Shown here: piece after piece, positions 1 to 9,157 of the stretch
Numbering within the stretch: the stretch's first letter is position 1
Layout of the letters: every line of letters begins with the position of its first letter
DNA from: a virus
Virus record (IMG/VR): IMGVR_UViG_3300023118_000009
Location: 1-48,804 of that record
Strand: one strand, 5' to 3'
DNA: 48,804 bases
Notes under the pieces: model-generated
What the model was told of the DNA's origin: nothing
Databases searched by the model: none
The model's input: the letters and a program-made list of their open reading frames with translations, nothing else
Program-made: the position numbers and the translations under genes

Positions 1-2423
1 GGATTTTCCAGCAGCTTGCGCGCTCGCTCAGGCAGCGGCTCGTTTCGAGCGCGAGCGGATAGAACTGCCGCCTGCATTTTCGGCCCGACGCCCTTAACGT
101 TCGAGAGCGGCCCGACGAGAGCCTTGCGCCCGTCGACGAGGCCCACGGTCCACTTGTCCGTCGAGATGTGCATGTCGGCGGGCACGTAGTCGACGCCTTC
201 GGCGGCCATCTCCCGGAGCATCTTAATTTGCTCGCCCGGCTTCGTCGGATCGGCATGGGTAAGGGTCGCGGCTGCGAAGGCAAGGGGGTGATGCGCCTTA
301 AGCCAGCAGCACCAATAGGACACGGTTCCATAAGCGAGCGCATGCGACAGGTTGAACGCCCATGCGCCATAAGCGCAGAGATCGTCCCAGACCTTTTCGA
401 GCACGTCGGCAGGGATGCCTTTCGCAATTGCGCCGGCTTTCCATCGATCGCCGAACTGATCGAAGAACTCTTTGCCGAGTGACTTCGACATCGCCTTGCG
501 CAGCGCGGTGACGTCTTCCCACGAAAGACCGCCGATCTCGCGCCCGATGTTCATAACTTGCTCTTGATAAGCCACCACGCCGAGCGTGCCCTTTAGGTGC
601 GGCTCGAACAACGGGTGCGGGTAGCTCTCGGGCGCCTTGCCGTTCTTAATCTCAATCCACCGGTGCGTGCCGCCCGAGTTGAGCGGCCCCGGACGGGCAA
701 GGGCTGTAATCGCCACGATGTCATTGAAGTCCGCGACCTTAATCGACGAGGAGATGTATTGCAGGGCGAGGCCATTGAACTGGAAAATGCCCGAGAACTT
801 CTGCGCATTGAGCACGTCGAAGGCGGCGGGATCGTCGAGGGGAACGCCGAACAAGTGGTCCCTATGCAAGCCGGCGAGTTCGAGCGCATCCTCAAAAATT
901 GATAGCTGCGTAAGACCCAGCGCGTCGATCTTGAGGAGGTTCAAATCCTCGGCGTCCTTCTTGTCGCACATCGTTGCGCCTGTCCGGGCGTCGACCGCGA
1001 CGTATTCCGAGACGGGCTTATCGGTTATGACAATGCCTGCGGCGTGCTGCGAGTAATGCCTCGGGTGCCCTTCCATCTGTCCGGCGACGAGGATTTCCGG
1101 ATACTCGTCGAGGAGCGCGCGCCCTGCGGGCGTGTCCCGGAGCGTGTCTTCCGTTGCCTGCAGCGCGCGGGCGTCGCCCGAGGATCGTTCAATAATCGCG
1201 TCCATAACGGGATCGACTTTCCACTGCGGAATGTCGAGGGCGCCCGCGCTCTCCTTGAGCGCGCTTCGCGGCTGGTAGAACGCGACGGTGCCGAGGCGGG
1301 CGACATGATCCTTGCCGTACTTCTGCGCGACGTACTCGAACACCATATGCCGCTTCGTATCGCTGAAATCGATATCGATGTCCGGGAGGTCGGAGCGGTT
1401 GAGATCGATAAATCGCTCGAAAATGAGACCGTGGGGGATTGGGTCGATCGTCGTTATTTCGAGGAGGTAGCAGACGAGGGAGCCGCAGGACGATCCGCGT
1501 GCCGGCCCGACGATCATCCTCTCGCGTGCCCACTGGCAGATATCCGCGACGAGATAGAAATAGTCCTCGAACTCCTTATCGCTGATCAGCTGCAGTTCGC
1601 GGTCCAGCCGCGCCGCATAGACGCCGTTGTCGAGGTCGACGCCGAGTTTGCGGGCGCCGGCAATGCACATATTGCGCAGCGTGTCCGGGCGCGGCGGAGA
1701 AACCATCGTCGCCGGCTGGATCGTCGCCGTCGAGAGTTCGAGCACTGCGTCGCGGTTCTTTAGCGCGTCGGCGAGCAAATCGACGGTATTCGGCCCGAGC
1801 CGCTCCGCCATGTCTCCGAGCCATTCCTCGTCGGACATGATCCACTGCGGATAGGATTGCGTCGAGGCGCCGCGCCCGCAAATCGTCTCATAAAGCCCGA
1901 GCCCGCCCTCGGCAGGATAGCGATTATCCGAGACGGCGATCGGCTTGTGTCCCGCCTCGAACCCCCGGCGCAGATATCCCGGCGTCACAGACGGCCCGAC
2001 GCCCACATAGAGGTGGGGCAGGGCGGCGATCTCGGCAATCTGCGACCTATGTCCCATAATTACCGAAACGCCCGCCTCCGCGCACGCCTGCTCGACCGTG
2101 AGCAGGGGCTGATACCGGAACTGCGACGTGGCGAGGGAAATGAGATTGTGCAGCGGGGCGAGGTCGCCTTGCGCAATGAAGGTCCAGTGGTCCGACGAGG
2201 GCTTTTTCGCATGGATACTGCGGGTCACGGCAAGCTCGACACCGAACACCGGGCGGAGGCCACGCTTTTTGCAGAGCTTACCCCACTTTACCCAGCCGAA
2301 GGTGCTCGCCGTGTCGGTTATCGGGGCGACGGCGCTGCCGATCTCCTGCAGCCGGTCGAGGACGTGCTCGACGCGGCCCACGGCGGAGCGGAAGGAATAC
2401 CCGGTGCGAATGCGTGCGCTCAT
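1..2423 (-). CDS. dnaE: DNA polymerase III alpha subunit-like (C-family) polymerase, C-terminus cut by window edge
   Basis: Replicative DNA polymerase of the C family; 807 codons are visible and the frame is still open at base 1. The catalytic core is clear: an ARGSSCGSLV loop, then FERF and the PDIDIDF motif, whose first Asp is about residue 348, followed by a third Asp in LLKIDALGL. RHYSQHAAGIVI and FQFNGLALQY are typical DnaE segments, and KGVGPKMQAAVLS near the left edge looks like the helix-hairpin-helix of the C-terminal part. The N-terminal PHP domain is degenerate: RTGYS stands where HxHS is expected and TDTASTFG where TDHG is expected. It therefore probably lacks PHP nuclease activity, and the DnaQ-like gene upstream may supply proofreading. 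The ATG overlaps the upstream stop as ATGA. Confidence 0.93.
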   Translation of the reverse strand, partial: MSARIRTGYSFRSAVGRVEHVLDRLQEIGSAVAPITDTASTFGWVKWGKLCKKRGLRPVFGVELAVTRSIHAKKPSSDHWTFIAQGDLAPLHNLISLATSQFRYQPLLTVEQACAEAGVSVIMGHRSQIAEIAALPHLYVGVGPSVTPGYLRRGFEAGHKPIAVSDNRYPAEGGLGLYETICGRGASTQSYPQWIMSDEEWLGDMAERLGPNTVDLLADALKNRDAVLELSTATIQPATMVSPPRPDTLRNMCIAGARKLGVDLDNGVYAARLDRELQLISDKEFEDYFYLVADICQWARERMIVGPARGSSCGSLVCYLLEITTIDPIPHGLIFERFIDLNRSDLPDIDIDFSDTKRHMVFEYVAQKYGKDHVARLGTVAFYQPRSALKESAGALDIPQWKVDPVMDAIIERSSGDARALQATEDTLRDTPAGRALLDEYPEILVAGQMEGHPRHYSQHAAGIVITDKPVSEYVAVDARTGATMCDKKDAEDLNLLKIDALGLTQLSIFEDALELAGLHRDHLFGVPLDDPAAFDVLNAQKFSGIFQFNGLALQYISSSIKVADFNDIVAITALARPGPLNSGGTHRWIEIKNGKAPESYPHPLFEPHLKGTLGVVAYQEQVMNIGREIGGLSWEDVTALRKAMSKSLGKEFFDQFGDRWKAGAIAKGIPADVLEKVWDDLCAYGAWAFNLSHALAYGTVSYWCCWLKAHHPLAFAAATLTHADPTKPGEQIKMLREMAAEGVDYVPADMHISTDKWTVGLVDGRKALVGPLSNVKGVGPKMQAAVLSARARNEPLPERARKLLEN

Positions 2424-2617
2424 AGGATTTTTCTCAGTTTGGCGAGGAGAAGGATCAGGAGATCAAACAGCGCGAGGAAAACCGCGATGAAGCAGAAGTC
2501 GACAAGGAAGGGCTTAGGGTTCATCCCTATATCGATCCATCGCATTGCCCAAGTAAGCAGGAAAATGCAGCCGACGACAAAGGCGAAATTGCCCGCGCGC
2601 TCGAGCGGATCGTTCAT
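2420..2617 (-). CDS. small two-helix membrane protein
   Basis: 65 residues with two hydrophobic stretches, around residues 11-25 and 37-58, separated by a short polar loop, and a basic C-terminus (LAKLRKIL). No family is recognised. The start at 2617 (MNDPLERAG) is chosen because it overlaps the stop of the SLOG gene as ATGA; a longer start 8 codons upstream would intrude further into that gene. Its own stop overlaps the polymerase start the same way, so it is translationally coupled inside the replication operon. It could be a small membrane effector; its function cannot be read from sequence. Confidence 0.6.
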   Translation of the reverse strand: MNDPLERAGNFAFVVGCIFLLTWAMRWIDIGMNPKPFLVDFCFIAVFLALFDLLILLLAKLRKIL

Positions 2618-3009
2618 TTTTGCATCTCCACCAATCCCCAAGCGGACACCTTGTCGACGCGGACACCAGCAACGCGCGCCTTGCGCATCATGTCTGCCGT
2701 GCCCCGGCTAGGGGTTCCGCTTTTATCATAGGTCGGGAAGGCGACCACCCTATCCGGGCGCGCATGCGCGAGCATGTAGGAATTGCGGCGCGGTCCGGCA
2801 GATAAACCGAAAGCATCCCAATTCGCCCGGTAGGTCTTGTGCTCAATCCCCTTGAGGATCGCCCAATCACCCGCCATCCGATCCGCACCATTCGGCTCGC
2901 CGCCTTCGGCAAGAAAGGTGATCGGCGTCTCGGCGTGCATGGCGTCGAGCACGTCATAGAGCGTCTTGCGCTTTTCGAAGTCCCTGCCGCCGCAAACGAT
3001 CACCCTCAT
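2614..3009 (-). CDS. DUF2493 (YspA/cpYpsA-related SLOG) family protein
   Basis: 131 residues beginning MRVIVCGGRDFE, the typical N-terminal strand and glycine loop of the DUF2493 branch of the SLOG (Rossmann-like, nucleotide-ligand-binding) superfamily. Further signature parts are AEGGEPNGADRMA, where an acidic pair and GADR line the ligand pocket, AGPRRNSYML, and a C-terminal SRGTADMMRKAR. SLOG proteins bind or process nucleotide-derived ligands; the exact ligand of phage copies is unknown. The start at 3009 is set by the ATGA overlap with the preceding gene; a longer upstream start would run through that gene. It sits among nucleotide-metabolism genes, consistent with a role in nucleotide sensing or modification, which is inference. 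Confidence 0.85.
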   Translation of the reverse strand: MRVIVCGGRDFEKRKTLYDVLDAMHAETPITFLAEGGEPNGADRMAGDWAILKGIEHKTYRANWDAFGLSAGPRRNSYMLAHARPDRVVAFPTYDKSGTPSRGTADMMRKARVAGVRVDKVSAWGLVEMQK

Positions 3010-3263
3010 TCTAAGCCCGCCTCTTTTAGCGCCTCGACCGTGCGCGGAAAGCGCTCCTGTCGCAGCGGCTCCGTTCCGATTGGCATGTAACACGCCTGCA
3101 TGGATACGACGCGCCCACCGATGCCGACGAAACCGGCGTCGACAAGCTCTTCCATCGCCTGTGGCGTGCCCTTCCCGTAAGCCGGATACCAGTTAACTTG
3201 GTCCCGGACGCGGTCGAGGAGTTTCCGGGCGCGGGGCGACAGTTCTTCCTCGGTCATCTTCAT
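3006..3263 (-). CDS. conserved hypothetical phage protein, 85 aa
   Basis: Unrecognised soluble protein. It begins MKMTEEELSPRARKLLDR, followed by a WYPAYGKGTPQAMEELV segment and an AGFVGIGGRVVSM segment. The helix-helix-strand-turn-strand alternation resembles a small winged-helix fold, but no family can be named. The ATG at 3263 forms ATGA with the stop of the upstream ASCH-like gene, which decides it over the ATGs at 3272 and 3257. Both ends are coupled to neighbours, so it belongs to the replication/nucleotide operon. Confidence 0.65.
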   Translation of the reverse strand: MKMTEEELSPRARKLLDRVRDQVNWYPAYGKGTPQAMEELVDAGFVGIGGRVVSMQACYMPIGTEPLRQERFPRTVEALKEAGLE

Positions 3264-3547
3264 CCCTTCCAATAAAAATCAGCGAGGATCGCGAACACCT
3301 CGACAGGCTTGTCGCCGAAATGCTTGTGGGTGATCGTCTTGCGCACGAAGCCGCGAAACGGCAAGTCGATCCGGCGCGAGGCGTCTTCCTTCGGCGGGTA
3401 TCCGCGCGTGATGATCAGGCGGTCATAGGACCGCCCTTCGAGCCGCTTCGCCCAATACGGCGTGCAAAGGCGAAACTCCTCCGTCTTCGTGCCGGAGACG
3501 ATCTCGTCGAAATACTCGCCATTGAGGGCGATTTGCAGGTTGCTCAC
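3260..3547 (-). CDS. ASCH/PUA-fold-like protein
   Basis: 95 residues. The segment LNGEYFDEIVSGTKTEEFR is the characteristic start of ASCH-type (PUA-fold) domains, in which a helix carrying Gly-x-Lys-x-x-Glu-x-Arg precedes a beta barrel; LPFRGFVRKTITHKHFGDKP fits the following strands. ASCH and related PUA-fold domains bind modified bases or nucleotides or act as small RNA-directed enzymes; the activity here is unknown. The GTG at 3547 overlaps the upstream stop as GTGA, which is preferred to an ATG further upstream inside the previous gene. A second protein of similar fold lies at 4491-4808 in the same operon. Confidence 0.65.
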   Translation of the reverse strand: MSNLQIALNGEYFDEIVSGTKTEEFRLCTPYWAKRLEGRSYDRLIITRGYPPKEDASRRIDLPFRGFVRKTITHKHFGDKPVEVFAILADFYWKG

Positions 3548-3810
3548 GACGGATACCCCTCGCGCGCGCCCGGCACCGCAATGCGCCACGCGATAATGTC
3601 GAGCGAGGGATAGGGCTGTGGTCGTTCAGGGCTCTCCCAAACCCAGAAAGCTGCAGCGTCGCGTTGCACTGGATCGACGTTCGCCCACACATACCCGTCA
3701 CGGTCCATGAAATCGATCCGCGCGCCCTCCGGGATTGTCGGGACATGCTGCCCGAGGTGCCGGGTCCACGAACCGTCGAGTTCGGCCGTTGCGAAATTAT
3801 CAGCCCTCAC
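3544..3810 (-). CDS. hypothetical protein, 88 aa
   Basis: No family recognised. It is a small, tryptophan-rich protein (GSWTRHLGQ, GYVWANVD, AAFWVWESPE) that looks soluble and mostly beta. It starts with GTG at 3810, forming GTGA with the stop of the exonuclease gene, and its stop forms GTGA with the ASCH-like gene. Tight coupling on both sides and ordinary codon use support a real gene. Function cannot be assigned. Confidence 0.6.
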   Translation of the reverse strand: MRADNFATAELDGSWTRHLGQHVPTIPEGARIDFMDRDGYVWANVDPVQRDAAAFWVWESPERPQPYPSLDIIAWRIAVPGAREGYPS

Positions 3811-4361
3811 GACAAATCCCCTCTCTTGATTAATTCAACCACGCACCGCGTCAGTGCGGCGACGTCGACTTCGGCGCGGTGCGCGCCGGTAAAGGGCTCG
3901 CCGAAAAGCTCCTGATACAGGTCGACGAGCTTTAGGCGGTGCCCGCGATAGAACTCCGTCGCCTCGACCGTGCAGACGCCGCGCGGCCACTGCACTGAAT
4001 GCCCAGCGCGCGCCATCTCGAAGTCGATGACGGCTTTGTCATAGGAGAGGTTATGGGCATACACGACGTCAGCGCTCTGTATCAGCGCCGCGATCTCCAT
4101 CGCGTGCGCCCGGAACGGCAACTTGCCGACGAGCATGTCGTCGGTGATGCCCGTTATCCGCGTCGTGTCCGGGGGCAGGATGCGGCCCGGATGGATAAGG
4201 TAGTGGGTGTGCTGCGCGAGCAAGTCGTCATAGTTGCCTACCGACTCATCGTTCGGCAACAGGGTCGCATAGAACTCAATGCACTGCGGCTGCTTCCCGA
4301 TCGGCAGGAGAGAGTTCTTAATCAGCGCCGTCGTCTCGGTGTCGAAAATCAACCTACGCAT
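3807..4361 (-). CDS. DnaQ-like (DEDDh) 3'-5' exonuclease
   Basis: 184 residues with the exonuclease motifs in order: Exo I FDTETT near the N-terminus, ITGITDDML, Exo II YAHNLSYD, and Exo III HRAEVDVAAL, which supplies the His and Asp of DEDDh enzymes. The layout matches a stand-alone proofreading exonuclease like the epsilon subunit of DNA polymerase III. With the C-family polymerase at the end of the same operon, and that polymerase having a degenerate PHP domain, it is the natural candidate proofreader. The ATG lies 8 bases inside the preceding small gene. Confidence 0.9.
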   Translation of the reverse strand: MRRLIFDTETTALIKNSLLPIGKQPQCIEFYATLLPNDESVGNYDDLLAQHTHYLIHPGRILPPDTTRITGITDDMLVGKLPFRAHAMEIAALIQSADVVYAHNLSYDKAVIDFEMARAGHSVQWPRGVCTVEATEFYRGHRLKLVDLYQELFGEPFTGAHRAEVDVAALTRCVVELIKRGDLS

Positions 4362-4494
4362 TTTCCGAGCCCTTCTTTGCCGCTTCCCAAAACACCGTCC
4401 ATTGCCGAACGGAAGTGTGCGACGGGCGGTCGATCCGCACGCCGAGAATGTAAACGTGGTCCGGGAATACCTGAATGTCGTCAGGGTGCATCAT
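4354..4494 (-). CDS. hypothetical protein, 46 aa
   Basis: Very small protein starting MMHPDDIQVFPDH with central HVYILGVRIDRPS and QWTVFWEAAKKG. No family recognised. The start at 4494 is fixed by an ATGA overlap with the stop of the DUF3850-like gene; the open frame extends further upstream, but there it only shadows that gene. It overlaps the exonuclease start by 8 bases, so it appears translationally coupled. Confidence 0.5.
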   Translation of the reverse strand: MMHPDDIQVFPDHVYILGVRIDRPSHTSVRQWTVFWEAAKKGSENA

Positions 4495-4808
4495 CGCGAA
4501 ATCCCCTGATACGTGCCGACGGAGCAAAGCCGGATTGACAGGACGCAATAGTCCGGGTGCAGCACGGCGGAGGATAGGGCGCACGGCGTGTCGCGGCTCG
4601 TGATATGCGTTACCTCGACCTCGCATTCGCGCCCGGTATAGGTGCCGTTCGTCGGATCGAACTCCATCAGGCGGAGCAGCTGGCCGCGCTCGAACGTGCG
4701 GTCCTTCGCGCACCGAATGTCGGCAGTGCGCTGGCCAGTAATAATGTCCGCAAAGAACCACGGCCACGACTTTAGTTCAATGAGGGTGTCGACGGGTGCG
4801 TTGCTCAA
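4491..4808 (-). CDS. DUF3850 (ASCH-superfamily) domain protein
   Basis: 105 residues. The segments LIELKSWPWFFADIITGQRTA, FERGQLLRLMEFDP and TGRECEVEVTHIT follow the DUF3850 pattern (ELK, x, FxxxxxGxKxxEIR, GDxLxLxEwDP, TGRxxxxxVTyI), a phage-frequent member of the ASCH/PUA-fold superfamily. The canonical Glu of the ExR motif is replaced: TADIR is seen. The start is TTG at 4808, overlapping the upstream stop as TTGA. Such proteins are thought to bind nucleotides or modified bases; no specific activity is established for this one. Confidence 0.8.
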   Translation of the reverse strand: MSNAPVDTLIELKSWPWFFADIITGQRTADIRCAKDRTFERGQLLRLMEFDPTNGTYTGRECEVEVTHITSRDTPCALSSAVLHPDYCVLSIRLCSVGTYQGISR

Positions 4809-5482
4809 AGGCTTTCCTCCCGCTGGCGCCGCTTCTCGGCGGAGATCGCGTCGAGTTCCTTGAGCATCATCGAATAGACCGCGATGTCGTCGAGGCTATC
4901 GTCATGGCCGCCGCGATTGAAGTTCTCGCCGTAGCGCGTCATCTTCGCCGCGATCTGCACGAGGATGCCGAGCCGGTTCATGTCGTCCGGGTTGCTCGTA
5001 TCGAGCTTCTGCCCTGCGAGCATGAGCGAGAACATCGGCCCGAAGCGCTTGTAGTTGTCGCCGTAGAGCGCGTTGCGGGTGCGGTAAATCTCCGCCTTCG
5101 CGTGCAGTTCGGTGGCGACGAAGCTCTCCGGGTCGGAGGAGGGCAGGCTGGCGCGGAGCATGTCGGCGGCCTTCTGCATGGGGGCTTCGGACATTGGCTT
5201 TTCCTTCGGTGCATAGGGATCGCGGGCGGGATGGATCGGCTTCGCGCCGACATAGGGCGCGGTCGGCGGGAAATGTGGCTGCGGCTCGCGCAAGCCTTCG
5301 TAGTGCGCCTTGCGCTCCGGCGGGCTGTCGTCCGTCGCGATCTTTAGAAGCTCAGATAGCGGACGCTTTACCCGAGAGCCATGGAACCTATGCGGGCAGA
5401 TTTCCACCTCTCCGCCGTGGGCCATCGCCGGGTGCTGCTCCGGATCGGTCGACCCACAGCGCGGACATTTGTCGTCAAGCAT
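4805..5482 (-). CDS. zinc-ribbon plus DUF1599-like (nucleotide modification associated) protein
   Basis: 225 residues. The N-terminus has a probable zinc-binding knuckle, CPRCGS with a distal CPHRFH. After a proline-rich linker (around residues 70-100) comes an all-helical domain with RNALYGDNYKRFGPMF, QIAAKMTRYGENF and HDDSLDDIAVYSMML. This YGDNY, K-x-x-R and DSLxDxAxY arrangement is that of the DUF1599/DUF6378-like, MazG-related family, described in comparative work as associated with nucleotide modification in phages. The start at 5482 (MLDDKCPRC) lies one base after the HAD gene stop; an earlier start would enter that gene. The substrate is unknown; a nucleotide substrate is inferred from the family. 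Confidence 0.75.
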   Translation of the reverse strand: MLDDKCPRCGSTDPEQHPAMAHGGEVEICPHRFHGSRVKRPLSELLKIATDDSPPERKAHYEGLREPQPHFPPTAPYVGAKPIHPARDPYAPKEKPMSEAPMQKAADMLRASLPSSDPESFVATELHAKAEIYRTRNALYGDNYKRFGPMFSLMLAGQKLDTSNPDDMNRLGILVQIAAKMTRYGENFNRGGHDDSLDDIAVYSMMLKELDAISAEKRRQREESL

Positions 5483-5483
5483 G

Positions 5484-5939
5484 TCAATAATCTCCGTTGG
5501 CGACTTGCAGGACGCGGAAGCCGGCATTGCGGAATGCCTCGACCACCTTGTCTCGATCGTCGAGTATGAAGGCGATTTGTTCGAGCGCCGTGGCGCGATC
5601 GTCGAACGCCTCGTCGATCAGCGCGAGCTTGACGTCAGCATCGCTGCGGAAGTCGTCGTCCGGGCGCATGAGCAGCAAATCGATATGCTGCTGAACCTCT
5701 TTCTCCCGGAGATGCGCGAGCGTGCGCTCCCGGTAGCGCTCTGGGCGCCCGGTGCATGCGACAATCACATAGTGCGCGATCGAAAGGTCTTCGACCAGCT
5801 GCGCAATATCCTCGTGCAGCGCATCGTCGACGAGCGCGGCATGATACTCGTTGAAGTCTCCGCCGAGGAGGTGCTTGCGGTGCGAGTGGTCGCAGAGGGT
5901 GCCGTCGAGGTCGACGATGACGTGGGTTTTATTGCTCAT
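5484..5939 (-). CDS. HAD-superfamily phosphatase, polynucleotide 3'-phosphatase-like
   Basis: 151 residues. HAD motif I is VDLDGTLCD (nucleophile and acid Asp at about 10 and 12), motif II is ACTGRPERYRERT, and a FILDDRDKVVEAFR segment supplies the distal acidic pair. The TGRPxxYRxxT form is shared with the 3'-phosphatase domain of T4 polynucleotide kinase and with phage HAD proteins. No P-loop kinase domain is attached. Likely substrates are nucleotide or DNA 3'-phosphates. It lies between the ThyX-like and DUF1599-like genes, which supports a nucleotide-processing job. Confidence 0.85.
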   Translation of the reverse strand: MSNKTHVIVDLDGTLCDHSHRKHLLGGDFNEYHAALVDDALHEDIAQLVEDLSIAHYVIVACTGRPERYRERTLAHLREKEVQQHIDLLLMRPDDDFRSDADVKLALIDEAFDDRATALEQIAFILDDRDKVVEAFRNAGFRVLQVANGDY

Positions 5940-5943
5940 CGCT

Positions 5944-6705
5944 TCAGCCTTTCTTCACGAGGTCAGCGGCCTTTGCGAGCCGCCCAGACATGCCCTTGTA
6001 GAGCGCGCCCCGCAAGTTTTCCAGCGCGGCAAGTTCCTTCGCAACCCCTTCAATAATCTCAATCGCCGCCGCCTGCGGCGGGACAAAGAACGGCGCGGCC
6101 CACGGCCATACCCGCAGAACTTCGCCTTTCATCTGCGCGCAGACGTCCCGGAAAGGCCCCTGCACGCGCAAACTGTCCCGCGCCCGGCAAAGCTCGACGA
6201 GGCCGCGCAGATTGTACTTGTTGACGAGGTTGCAGTGAACGCCGATCGGGAGGAGGTCGCGCGCGTCTTCGAGCGGCATGCCTTCCTCGACCGCTTCCGA
6301 ATAGCGCTTGATCGCATTGCGCATGCGGCTGTCATGCCGATCTGCCTCGAAGGCGTCCCGCCCGACGCGATCCCACGTCACGTCCGACATATCCGTCACG
6401 CGCTGCGACTGCATGGCGAACGAGGCGGTGCGGGTCCGGGTGATCTGCTGGGCGGTCGCGCGGGAGACATTTTCCACGAGGAAAGTGACGTCCGCGAACT
6501 CCCACGACGACGGGATCGTCGTCGCCATATAGGCGACCTCGGCGAGGATGTCCGCGTCGGACATGATCAGCGAGTCCATGAACCCGCGCAGTCCGCCCGG
6601 CGACATTTTCAGCCGCGTGTTCTTCGTGAAGGCAAGGATGCGGGCGGCATAGAGCGGGTCGGGCGAGCCGGCTCCGGTGTAGTCGATAAGGCTAACCCGA
6701 GGCAT
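5944..6705 (-). CDS. thyX: ThyX-family (flavin-dependent thymidylate synthase-like) enzyme with altered active site
   Basis: 253 residues with the ThyX fold order. FADVTFLVENVSRATAQQ aligns with the FTF-x-I-x-x-VSR core, followed at once by RTRTASFAMQSQRV at the place of the RHR(x)7S motif, then EDARDLLP and NLRGLVELCRARDS with FRDV, matching the NxRSLxHFxxLR region. Two family hallmarks differ: the His of RHR is Thr, and the His of the upstream SxxEH segment is Phe (SSWEF). Canonical ThyX converts dUMP to dTMP using FAD, methylene-tetrahydrofolate and NADPH. The substitutions near the flavin/folate pocket suggest changed chemistry, for example hydroxymethyl transfer, but that is inference. 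The start at 6705 (MPRVSLIDYTG) overlaps the flavoprotein gene by 14 bases; ATGs further upstream lie deeper inside it. Confidence 0.82.
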   Translation of the reverse strand: MPRVSLIDYTGAGSPDPLYAARILAFTKNTRLKMSPGGLRGFMDSLIMSDADILAEVAYMATTIPSSWEFADVTFLVENVSRATAQQITRTRTASFAMQSQRVTDMSDVTWDRVGRDAFEADRHDSRMRNAIKRYSEAVEEGMPLEDARDLLPIGVHCNLVNKYNLRGLVELCRARDSLRVQGPFRDVCAQMKGEVLRVWPWAAPFFVPPQAAAIEIIEGVAKELAALENLRGALYKGMSGRLAKAADLVKKG

Positions 6706-7672
6706 GTGCTTTTCTCCGGCTGTAGGAACTGCCCGAGGCAATTCGCTGGATGACGCGGACATCATTCACGATGTCGTCGAGGAGCAAGCCGGGGCGCCAA
6801 GTCGCGAAGCGCCCGAGCGAATAGACGTTGTGGACTTCCGAGGCCCAAAGGATGAACCGCTCCCGCGCATCGTTGTCGATCGGCAGGATTTTCATATATT
6901 TCTGCGCTCGGACGACGATCGTCGTCGGGTCGATCGAGTCTGCGGGCAAGCCGAAAAATTCCAGAACCGCGCTTAGTTCGATCGCATAGTCGATGCTCGG
7001 AGCGACATTCAGCGCGACTTCCTGCGCCTGCGGGATCGACAATCCCGGCAAGGCATACTCGACGATCAATTCATCGCCCTGCAGCGATGCCCGATAGGCG
7101 CGGATATGCGGCGATGGCAGATAGAGCGACGCATGCGCCTGCACGTCCCGCAGACGGGCGCGGATCGTGAAGCCGTGCACTGCCGAGAACGGCGGAAGGT
7201 CTTCCGGGTAGTCGAGCAGCCGGGCGGCGATCGGCATCGGCACGGTGGAGATAACCGGGAACGGGCTCCGGGTCTTTTCTGGCGCCCACTGCCAGCCGAG
7301 GAGAACGTGCCCGGACACCTTGCTGGCCATGCGCTCTGTAAAGTCCGGCGGCGCGATCCAGCGCTCCTCGACTTCGCCCTTTGCCGAGGCGATCGACCGC
7401 AGCATGGCGGAGCCGGTCGCCTTCGTCGAATAGGCGAGCGCATCGCCGATCGGGTTCCCGGCGTAGGGGACGGACGCCTTGACGACGTCGACCTTGCGGA
7501 AGGGAATGTTCAGCGCATCGCCGACGACAGGCGAACGGAAGCGGAGCACGGCGGAGTGATTATGCGGAAGTTCCGCCAGCGCCTCATAGACGTGCGAGCA
7601 TTCATCCCGGAGGATGGCTGCGGCGAGGAGGCCGGCTGCGCCGGCTCCGACAACGCGGAAGGGTTGGCTCAT
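6692..7672 (-). CDS. FAD/NAD(P)-binding Rossmann flavoprotein
   Basis: 326 residues. The N-terminal FRVVGAGAAGLLAAAIL is a dinucleotide-binding GxGxxG fingerprint. The C-terminal VYSLGRFATWRPGLLLDD resembles the second FAD-contact motif (G-R-x-A-x-x-x-P) of UDP-galactopyranose-mutase/amine-oxidase-like flavoproteins. The middle has no motif that I can name. It immediately precedes and overlaps the ThyX-like gene, implying a shared pathway. Flavoproteins that rework modified thymines are known in some phages, but which reaction this one performs is not visible. The ATG at 7672 shares a base with the upstream stop (TGATG); a GTG three bases earlier is the alternative start. Confidence 0.8.
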   Translation of the reverse strand: MSQPFRVVGAGAAGLLAAAILRDECSHVYEALAELPHNHSAVLRFRSPVVGDALNIPFRKVDVVKASVPYAGNPIGDALAYSTKATGSAMLRSIASAKGEVEERWIAPPDFTERMASKVSGHVLLGWQWAPEKTRSPFPVISTVPMPIAARLLDYPEDLPPFSAVHGFTIRARLRDVQAHASLYLPSPHIRAYRASLQGDELIVEYALPGLSIPQAQEVALNVAPSIDYAIELSAVLEFFGLPADSIDPTTIVVRAQKYMKILPIDNDARERFILWASEVHNVYSLGRFATWRPGLLLDDIVNDVRVIQRIASGSSYSRRKAHASG

Positions 7673-8253
7673 CACGCCTTCCCCTTCTTTGCCTTCGGCT
7701 CCTTCGGCACGGTGAAGGACGCCTTACGCCCGACGAAGCAGCCGAGTTTCGCCGGCTCGATATCCTCGCCTGCGGCGAGCTTCTCCCGGACGAACGCCAT
7801 GAGCGTTTGCGGGTGAACCGTCTCGTCGAGGATCGGTTCGAAGCCAGCTTTGCGAATATCGGCGGCAAGGGACAAGGCGACATTGTGCTCAGACTTGCCG
7901 AACGACAGAGACACGAGGGTCCGGATAAGTTCCTCGCCGCCATAGGAGTTAAGCGTTGCGAACGCCTCCTTGCGGCGCTCCTCATCCTTCGGGATGCTGC
8001 CCTGAACGAATGTCTCGACCTTCACTGACTTGCCGTCGGGCATCTTGAACTCGTCGAGGCCGACGGCGGCCATCGCCTCCGGGATAATCGTCATGCGCAG
8101 TTCGTGCAGACGGCCCGTCTTGAGCTTGAGCAACTGCTCAATGCCCTCGATTTCTTCCATAAGCGTCACGCCTTCCTGCGCGAGCTTGATCATTGGCGCA
8201 AGCGCCTGCCCGTCGTGCGCGGCAGGAATATCGAACGCGGATACGTCATTCAT
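7672..8253 (-). CDS. conserved phage protein of early/replication operons
   Basis: 193 residues starting MNDVSAFDIPAAHDG. A helical N-terminal half (MEEIEGIEQLLKLKTGRLHELR) precedes a conserved-looking core: IIPEAMAAVGLDEF, VQGSIPKDEERR, SLSFGKSEHN, VHPQTLMAFVRE and GCFVGRKASF, ending in a lysine-rich tail. I recognise this as a widespread phage protein type usually placed beside ssDNA-binding or recombination genes, but no activity is known to me. It follows the presumed ssDNA-binding gene after a stable hairpin, so its expression may be lower than that gene's. Confidence 0.75.
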   Translation of the reverse strand: MNDVSAFDIPAAHDGQALAPMIKLAQEGVTLMEEIEGIEQLLKLKTGRLHELRMTIIPEAMAAVGLDEFKMPDGKSVKVETFVQGSIPKDEERRKEAFATLNSYGGEELIRTLVSLSFGKSEHNVALSLAADIRKAGFEPILDETVHPQTLMAFVREKLAAGEDIEPAKLGCFVGRKASFTVPKEPKAKKGKA

Positions 8254-8283
8254 AGCTGATATGTCTCCAGGAAAGGGGAGGAG

Positions 8284-8305
8284 GGGGCGACCCGAAGGTC
8301 GCCCC
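8284..8305 (-). terminator. stable hairpin with UUCG loop between first and second gene of left operon
   Basis: GGGGCGACC and GGTCGCCCC form a perfect 9 bp stem. Read on the minus strand the loop is TTCG closed by C-G, the extra-stable tetraloop type. No T-run follows on the minus strand (CTCCTCCCC), so it is more likely an attenuator or mRNA-stability hairpin than a full intrinsic terminator. It lies 6 bases past the stop of the first gene. Confidence 0.6.
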
Positions 8306-8311
8306 GCAGGC

Positions 8312-9157
8312 TCACATGCGGTCGGTATCGCCCGAGGGCTGCGCCGAGCTTTCGCTCGCAACGCCGGCAAGGTCGCCGCGCGCCTCGCCCTTCTCGATGG
8401 TCTTGCGGAACTCGACGATATCGTCGAGGATTTCACGCCAGTTTTTCGGCGCGAGTTCCTGCAGCGTGTCGCCGCGATCAATCTTCCACCCCATCCACTT
8501 GCCCTTGTTATTGCCTTCCGGGACGGTGGAGAGATTGTAGGAGCGATAGAAAAGCGGCGGGGTGAACTCGGTATGATCCGGACGGGCGACCTTCTCCGTC
8601 GTCGCGAGCGTGAGCAGAAGACGCGCCTTCTTAAGCTGCGTCGACACCATCGGAATGAAGACTTTCTGGTAGCCCTTCGTCACGTTCAGGGCGTACAACT
8701 GGGCCGTCTCGGCGATGTAGTTGCCATTCGGCAGGACGGAACGACCGTTCGCGTCTTCCTCGGTCTGGTCATAGATTTCATCGCTCTGATGAATCTTGAT
8801 AAGACCCTTGCCGCTCTCGCGCGGTGCCCACTCGATATAGACCTTCGAGTAATGCACCGGGATAATCGTCACGCCGTCCGGGAAGCCCTCGCCGAGCCCC
8901 ATGTCCCAGATCATACCGACGCGGGCATCCTTGTCATATTCCGGCTCGCCCTGCGTGACCTGCGGGGACAAGCCCTGCAGGATGCCGAGGCGAGGGATAA
9001 GGAGGTCGGCGGCGGTGACGTTCTCGAAGCCGGTCGAAATGCCTTCGAACGCGGCGAGGTCGGTAGAGAGAGCCGTCGAGGCGGTCTGCGTAGCGGGGAG
9101 GTTTTCGGTTGCAGCGGGCGCGGCCTTCGAGGCGGCGGCAGTGTTGCGCGGTGCCAT
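8312..9157 (-). CDS. probable phage ssDNA-binding-like protein
   Basis: 281 residues. After a low-complexity Ala/Thr-rich N-terminus (about 1-45) comes DLLIPRLGILQGLSPQVTQG, the conserved start of a common phage early-protein family whose members are often annotated as ssDNA-binding or recombination-associated. A beta-rich middle follows (VTIIPVHYSKVYIEW, QLYALNVTKGYQKVFIPMVSTQ, KWMGWKI), and an acidic, unstructured C-terminal tail (SESSAQPSGDTDRM), as in many ssDNA-binding proteins. It is the first gene behind the minus-strand promoter, consistent with high early expression. The function is family-level inference; the gene itself is certain. Confidence 0.72.
   Translation of the reverse strand: MAPRNTAAASKAAPAATENLPATQTASTALSTDLAAFEGISTGFENVTAADLLIPRLGILQGLSPQVTQGEPEYDKDARVGMIWDMGLGEGFPDGVTIIPVHYSKVYIEWAPRESGKGLIKIHQSDEIYDQTEEDANGRSVLPNGNYIAETAQLYALNVTKGYQKVFIPMVSTQLKKARLLLTLATTEKVARPDHTEFTPPLFYRSYNLSTVPEGNNKGKWMGWKIDRGDTLQELAPKNWREILDDIVEFRKTIEKGEARGDLAGVASESSAQPSGDTDRM

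Follow-up and report, generated by a model that had tools for sequence, protein, structure and literature searches.

A flavoprotein and a ThyX-like protein that has lost the flavin- and folate-handling histidines: a phage gene pair that probably makes a modified pyrimidine

The gene pair analysed here lies in a 48.8-kb virus record (IMG/VR record IMGVR_UViG_3300023118_000009, positions 1 to 48,804; the window, meaning this whole stretch of DNA) of a myovirus-like phage with sheath, baseplate, portal and terminase genes. The pair and its neighbours are all encoded on the minus strand:

3 to 2423, minus strand: DnaE, DNA polymerase III alpha subunit, interrupted by the left edge of the window (open frame 3-2462; clusters with the DnaE of relatives)
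3807 to 4361, minus strand: DnaQ-like 3'-5' exonuclease, DNA polymerase III epsilon-like (PF00929, E = 6.7e-12; phrog_192)
4805 to 5527, minus strand: protein with a CxxC-type N-terminal region and a C-terminal DUF6378-like domain (PF19905, weak, below cut-off; phrog_4889)
5484 to 5939, minus strand: HAD phosphatase of the PNKP type, beginning 4 bp past the ThyX-like stop (PF25109, E = 1.9e-25; phage and bacterial Pnkp in the PDB)
5944 to 6705, minus strand: ThyX-like protein, 253 amino acids (PF02511, E = 2.2e-25; alignment to T. maritima ThyX; AlphaFold2 pLDDT 94.9)
6692 to 6705, minus strand: 14-bp overlap of the ThyX-like and flavoprotein genes (ORF coordinates)
6692 to 7675, minus strand: flavoprotein of PHROG 4828, FAD-type, with a predicted UDP-galactopyranose mutase (UGM)-like fold (phrog_4828, E = 1.2e-51; GAGAAG motif; AlphaFold2 pLDDT 90.9; Foldseek)
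7672 to 8481, minus strand: Pam3 gp33-like protein, abutting the flavoprotein start (longest ORF, true start probably more internal; PF23984, E = 1.8e-19; phrog_2378; in 78/121 loci)
8312 to 9157, minus strand: Pam3 gp34-like protein (PF23977, E = 2.3e-47; in 83/121 loci)

The flavoprotein gene is the upstream partner of the ThyX-like gene and starts either with a GTG at 7675 (327 amino acids) or with an ATG at 7672 (326 amino acids). The ThyX-like coding sequence starts with an ATG (N terminus MPRVSLIDYTG...) immediately preceded by an SD-like GGAGAAA; its open frame can be extended to 6765, and relatives align from the methionine of the 6705 start. The preliminary description of this DNA had reported a 14-base overlap with a GxGxxG flavoprotein gene, which we confirm. 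The two Pam3-like genes (7672-9157) have no assigned function, and roughly two thirds of loci keep them 5' of the pair.

The ThyX-like protein had also been described as a divergent ThyX homologue in which RTR replaces RHR and SSWEF stands in place of the usual SxxEH. This is borne out by the Pfam Thy1 profile (PF02511), which it matches with 90 bits against a gathering score of 24.8, and by alignment to T. maritima ThyX, where RTR (residues 90-92) corresponds to R78-H79-R80 and SSWEF (residues 66-70) to T55-P-F-E-H59. The claim that two histidines are thereby removed was correct and understated the change, as His53 is replaced by Ile and His178 by Arg, and Glu86 and Tyr91 are also replaced (T. 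maritima numbering throughout). When 120 family members were aligned, His53 was lost from all of them (Ile in 113, otherwise Leu or Asn), as were His59 (Phe in 116, otherwise Met) and His178 (Arg in 120/120), while His79 was Thr, Ser or Asn in 119/120 and Tyr91 mostly Val; the RHRxxS-type motif with His79, accompanied by His53, is not a feature of this family. Conversely, Gln75, Arg78, Arg80, Arg90, Arg147, Arg165, Arg174 and Gln180 are invariant (120/120 each). Canonical controls aligned identically (T. maritima ThyX and seven phage enzymes, n = 8) retain His53, His79 and Ser88 (8/8 each), and also Arg90, Arg147 and Arg174. Since the residue changes are held across 120 homologues and the eight canonical enzymes keep His53 and His79, they are not due to chance; a chance or annotation artefact is further ruled out by a well-supported clade, the family branching apart from the canonical ThyX sampled with a support of 100/99 and a long branch. 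A degenerate pseudoenzyme peculiar to this phage is ruled out by the family-wide conservation of the residues.

In ThyX, His53 stacks on FADH- or the folate and hydrogen-bonds Tyr91 (PMC11940539), Arg174 activates dUMP, Ser88, Arg90 and Tyr91 matter for methylene transfer, and the methylene donor is a flavin N5 carbinolamine (PMC8316439). The census and these published roles together suggest that the family has kept the residues for nucleotide binding and C5 activation and lost those that handle flavin and folate, by stacking on them or as general acid. By alignment, Gln75, Arg78, Arg90, Arg147 and Arg174 can be assigned to dUMP binding or activation, the roles of Arg174 and Arg90 being taken from PMC8316439 and those of Gln75, Arg78 and Arg147 from the PolB complex. 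Two sub-types are distinguished at positions 85-87, AMQ (that of the window) and AQQ, which could mark different substrates.

For the predicted ThyX-like structure, the best 50 listed PDB matches are all ThyX or the UMP/dUMP methylase PolB (Foldseek, probability 1.0). The family is thus like ThyX (PF02511, TIGR02170; T. maritima TM0449) in predicted fold, length and assigned nucleotide-binding residues, whereas it differs in the replacement of His53, His59, His79, His178 and Tyr91, in forming a separate clade, in its linkage to a second flavoprotein gene and in its sub-equivalog score. PolB (PDB 4p5a/4p5b), which acts as a C5-methylase in polyoxin synthesis, is a ThyX homologue that has taken on another pyrimidine substrate; it is an FAD methylase active as a purified protein and has His83 among its dUMP contacts, whereas the motif histidine is missing from 119/120 members of the phage family. 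The top matches of the flavoprotein model are UGM (probability 1.0, TM about 0.58), with other FAD proteins ranking next, and it has the two-domain UGM-like FAD fold as far as the prediction goes. With UGM and related FAD proteins it shares GxGxxG (GAGAAG near the N terminus; 90/97 family members) and a C-terminal GR motif (GR-x-A/G-T-W/H-R, 93/97), but its identity to UGM is about 13% and the locus has no sugar-nucleotide context. No UGM Pfam match was obtained, and a PDB profile search gave no match at E<0.1 (best E 0.3). The resemblance to UGM is one of predicted fold, and membership is not supported by sequence searches.

Homologues of each protein were found by tblastn in several hundred phage records, largely the same phages, including Pbunavirus, Wifcevirus, Myosmarvirus, Carpasinavirus, and Rhizobium and Vibrio phages; the cassette also occurs in podoviruses and in a jumbo Rhizobium phage. 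When 84,980 bacterial and archaeal genomes were scanned, the only three matches were on small MAG contigs, so that the family is essentially phage-restricted. In IMG/VR the flavoprotein gene is upstream in 86/86 scorable ThyX-like loci and the ThyX-like gene downstream in 79/79 scorable flavoprotein loci, one further locus in each set being too short to score, and the two genes mostly overlap or are separated by at most 25 bp. Because these loci were selected for their resemblance to the family of the window protein, the counts apply to this family and not to ThyX at large. The genes annotated 'thymidylate synthase' in Pbunavirus, Wifcevirus, Myosmarvirus and Carpasinavirus belong to the same family, their products sharing about 28-31% identity with that of the window, and have the same upstream flavoprotein and the HAD/DUF6378 cassette. 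Neither a plasmid-borne pair (no plasmid occurrence was found) nor a defence system (no PADLOC match) was retained as a candidate. In a distance-matrix test for co-evolution of the pair, the ThyX-like protein and the flavoprotein correlate weakly beyond close relatives (Spearman 0.20, against 0.69 for the flavoprotein and DnaQ); ThyX-like distances track neither flavoprotein nor DnaQ distances well, a hint that alleles of the ThyX-like gene may have been exchanged.

The usual gene order is ThyX-like, HAD phosphatase, DUF6378, then DnaQ and DnaE. Among 99 non-redundant loci whose downstream sequence covers at least 3.5 kb, the PNKP-type HAD phosphatase is present in 90 and the DUF6378-like domain in 93. 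The two domains are fused in several relatives (L002, L005, L006, L009, L010 and L012). DnaQ is found in 103 and DnaE in 95 of 121 non-redundant loci. Wifcevirus FEC19 carries the full cassette. A PDB profile search with DUF6378 gave no matches, which leaves its role as a nucleotide pyrophosphohydrolase a guess. A short-chain dehydrogenase (SDR) gene and a glyoxalase-like gene each occur in about 40% of loci, including several of the named phages, and neither was found in the window locus. Where present (L005, L006, L009, L010, L012 and about 40% of IMG/VR loci), the SDR gene, often with the glyoxalase-fold gene, lies between HAD/DUF6378 and DnaQ, and the products are possible tailoring enzymes; comparison of loci revealed no link between the AMQ/AQQ sub-type and SDR gene presence. 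The conserved cassette lacks the glycosyltransferases and pyrophosphorylases known from hypermodification pathways, which counts against the modified-pyrimidine reading given below.

The pairing, the residue pattern, the predicted folds, and the linkage to a nucleotide-type phosphatase, to DUF6378 and to the phage's own PolIII-type polymerase are the evidence that the two genes form a module. We consider it probable, at roughly 60%, that the product of this two-protein module is a C5-modified pyrimidine deoxynucleotide destined for the phage genome, and not dTMP. Such a role had been put forward in the preliminary description, and it remains the best fit to the context, including the linkage in 86/86 and 79/79 loci; the hydroxymethyl chemistry proposed with it becomes one option among several. 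The pair would act as an obligate enzyme module of virulent phages, in which the ThyX-like tetramer would still bind dUMP or a close pyrimidine nucleotide, activate its C5 through Arg174, and receive a one-carbon unit from a reduced flavin N5 adduct, located either in the altered ThyX-like site or in the partner flavoprotein. With the His53/Tyr91/His79 arrangement gone, the exocyclic methylene intermediate would be attacked by another nucleophile instead of being reduced to methyl, a diversion that the flavoprotein would perform or complete; its best fold match, UGM, is an enzyme whose N5 chemistry has been likened to that of ThyX (PMC8316439). The HAD and DUF6378 proteins might, as a guess, trim competing or modified nucleotide pools, and the polymerase would incorporate the product, which would block restriction. 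If water trapped the methylene intermediate, 5-hydroxymethyl-dUMP would follow; this specific intermediate is doubtful, attack by a different nucleophile or additional processing by the flavoprotein being as possible.

Wifcevirus phages withstand almost every restriction system they have been tested against, and no mechanism that protects them is known (PMC11990801). The title of a 2025 preprint, which a Pbunavirus paper cites (PMC12390725), speaks of nucleases targeting hypermodified phage genomes, and Pbunaviruses carry the ThyX-like/flavoprotein pair. The cassette of Wifcevirus FEC19, this restriction resistance and, as far as a title can tell, the hypermodification linked to Pbunavirus together favour a modified pyrimidine as the most likely product. 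The preprint may have identified the base, or the genes, already.

The preliminary description gave as an alternative a dTMP synthase with a relaxed motif. In such an enzyme the lost histidines would be compensated elsewhere, and the flavoprotein would be a dedicated reductase or flavin supplier boosting dTMP for replication. The full predicted ThyX fold, the Thy1 match and the conserved dUMP-site residues are what this explanation expects, and canonical phage ThyX also vary at positions 78-80 (KHK, KHQ). Among 20 genomes searched, ThyA was found in none and the ThyX-like gene was the sole thymidylate-synthase-family gene found in 19, which is expected of a dTMP supplier too and counts against the modified-pyrimidine reading. 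Nevertheless, His53 and His79, present in all eight controls, are lost from 120/120 and 119/120 members, respectively, and the protein scores 81.0 bits with the NCBIfam thyX equivalog model TIGR02170, under the cut-off of 87.9. In addition, we know of no characterised ThyX that depends on an additional flavoprotein, a thymidylate synthase is already encoded by known hosts such as Pseudomonas, and the remaining one of the 20 genomes, an IMG/VR phage (G005), holds, besides the pair, a further, more canonical-looking ThyX (motifs RHW and FQEFSQR) next to a ribonucleotide reductase (L176:2762-3517). This alternative is weakened by these observations, and we regard it as unlikely.

The substrate of the pair could be DNA or another nucleotide. 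A pair that modifies DNA or RNA rather than a free nucleotide, after replication, as TrmFO or MnmE/MnmG do on tRNA, would be consistent with a partner predicted to be a two-domain FAD protein and with the related N5-adduct chemistry of folate/flavin RNA enzymes such as TrmFO (PMC8316439), but it is very unlikely, as the positions aligned with the dUMP phosphate-binding Arg90 and Arg147 are invariant, which points to a mononucleotide, and the best folds are ThyX and UGM, not TrmFO or MnmG. That the ThyX-like protein has abandoned methylene transfer and binds or sequesters a pyrimidine nucleotide, while the flavoprotein, like UGM, has some other small molecule, for instance a nucleotide sugar, as its substrate, would agree with the loss of Tyr91 and the flavin/folate histidines and with UGM being the closest flavoprotein fold, but is very unlikely given the invariant Arg174 (C5/N3 activation) and the pairing in all scorable loci, which suggest joint catalysis, and a conserved cassette devoid of glycosyltransferase.

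The production of a modified pyrimidine by the pair would have a parallel in thymidine hypermodification (Pseudomonas phage M6, ViI, SP10), which shares the idea of a C5 pyrimidine modification begun by a thymidylate-synthase-type enzyme. The M6, ViI and SP10 pathways use ThyA-type hydroxymethylases and DNA-level tailoring. Membership in an M6-type pathway is ruled out, profiles of both proteins giving no matches in the M6 genome stretch searched. In the literature searched, no work connecting these ThyX-like genes with base modification in phages was found. We tentatively propose, as a possibility that falls somewhat short of an even chance, a new pathway in which a ThyX paralogue without flavin/folate histidines and a UGM-fold flavoprotein make a new C5-substituted pyrimidine, present genome-wide in many virulent phages including therapeutic Pbunaviruses, with a one-carbon or larger unit possibly passed between two flavins.

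The 'thymidylate synthase' genes of hundreds of phages, including Wifcevirus and Pbunaviruses used in phage therapy, probably have a different function. With its strict partnership and its shared residue losses, the pair is a candidate cause of the unexplained resistance of Wifcevirus to restriction, and it is possibly also behind the hypermodification named in the preprint title that was cited for Pbunavirus; under the modified-pyrimidine reading, the base would protect the virus.

Some minor observations concern other genes near the pair. In the cassette of Vibrio phage VA-RY-3, the place of the SDR and glyoxalase-like genes is taken by a gene with a sulfotransferase domain (PF13469, E = 6e-7; L003:9336-10088), two genes past the ThyX-like gene. 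In the window, two small minus-strand genes past the cassette (4491-4808 and 3260-3589) give weak ASCH/PUA-like signals (phrog_986, phrog_625), and ASCH/PUA-like domains can bind modified bases. A YspA/YAcAr SLOG-family protein, a possible nucleotide binder, is encoded at 2614-3093 on the same strand (PF10686, E = 1e-19).
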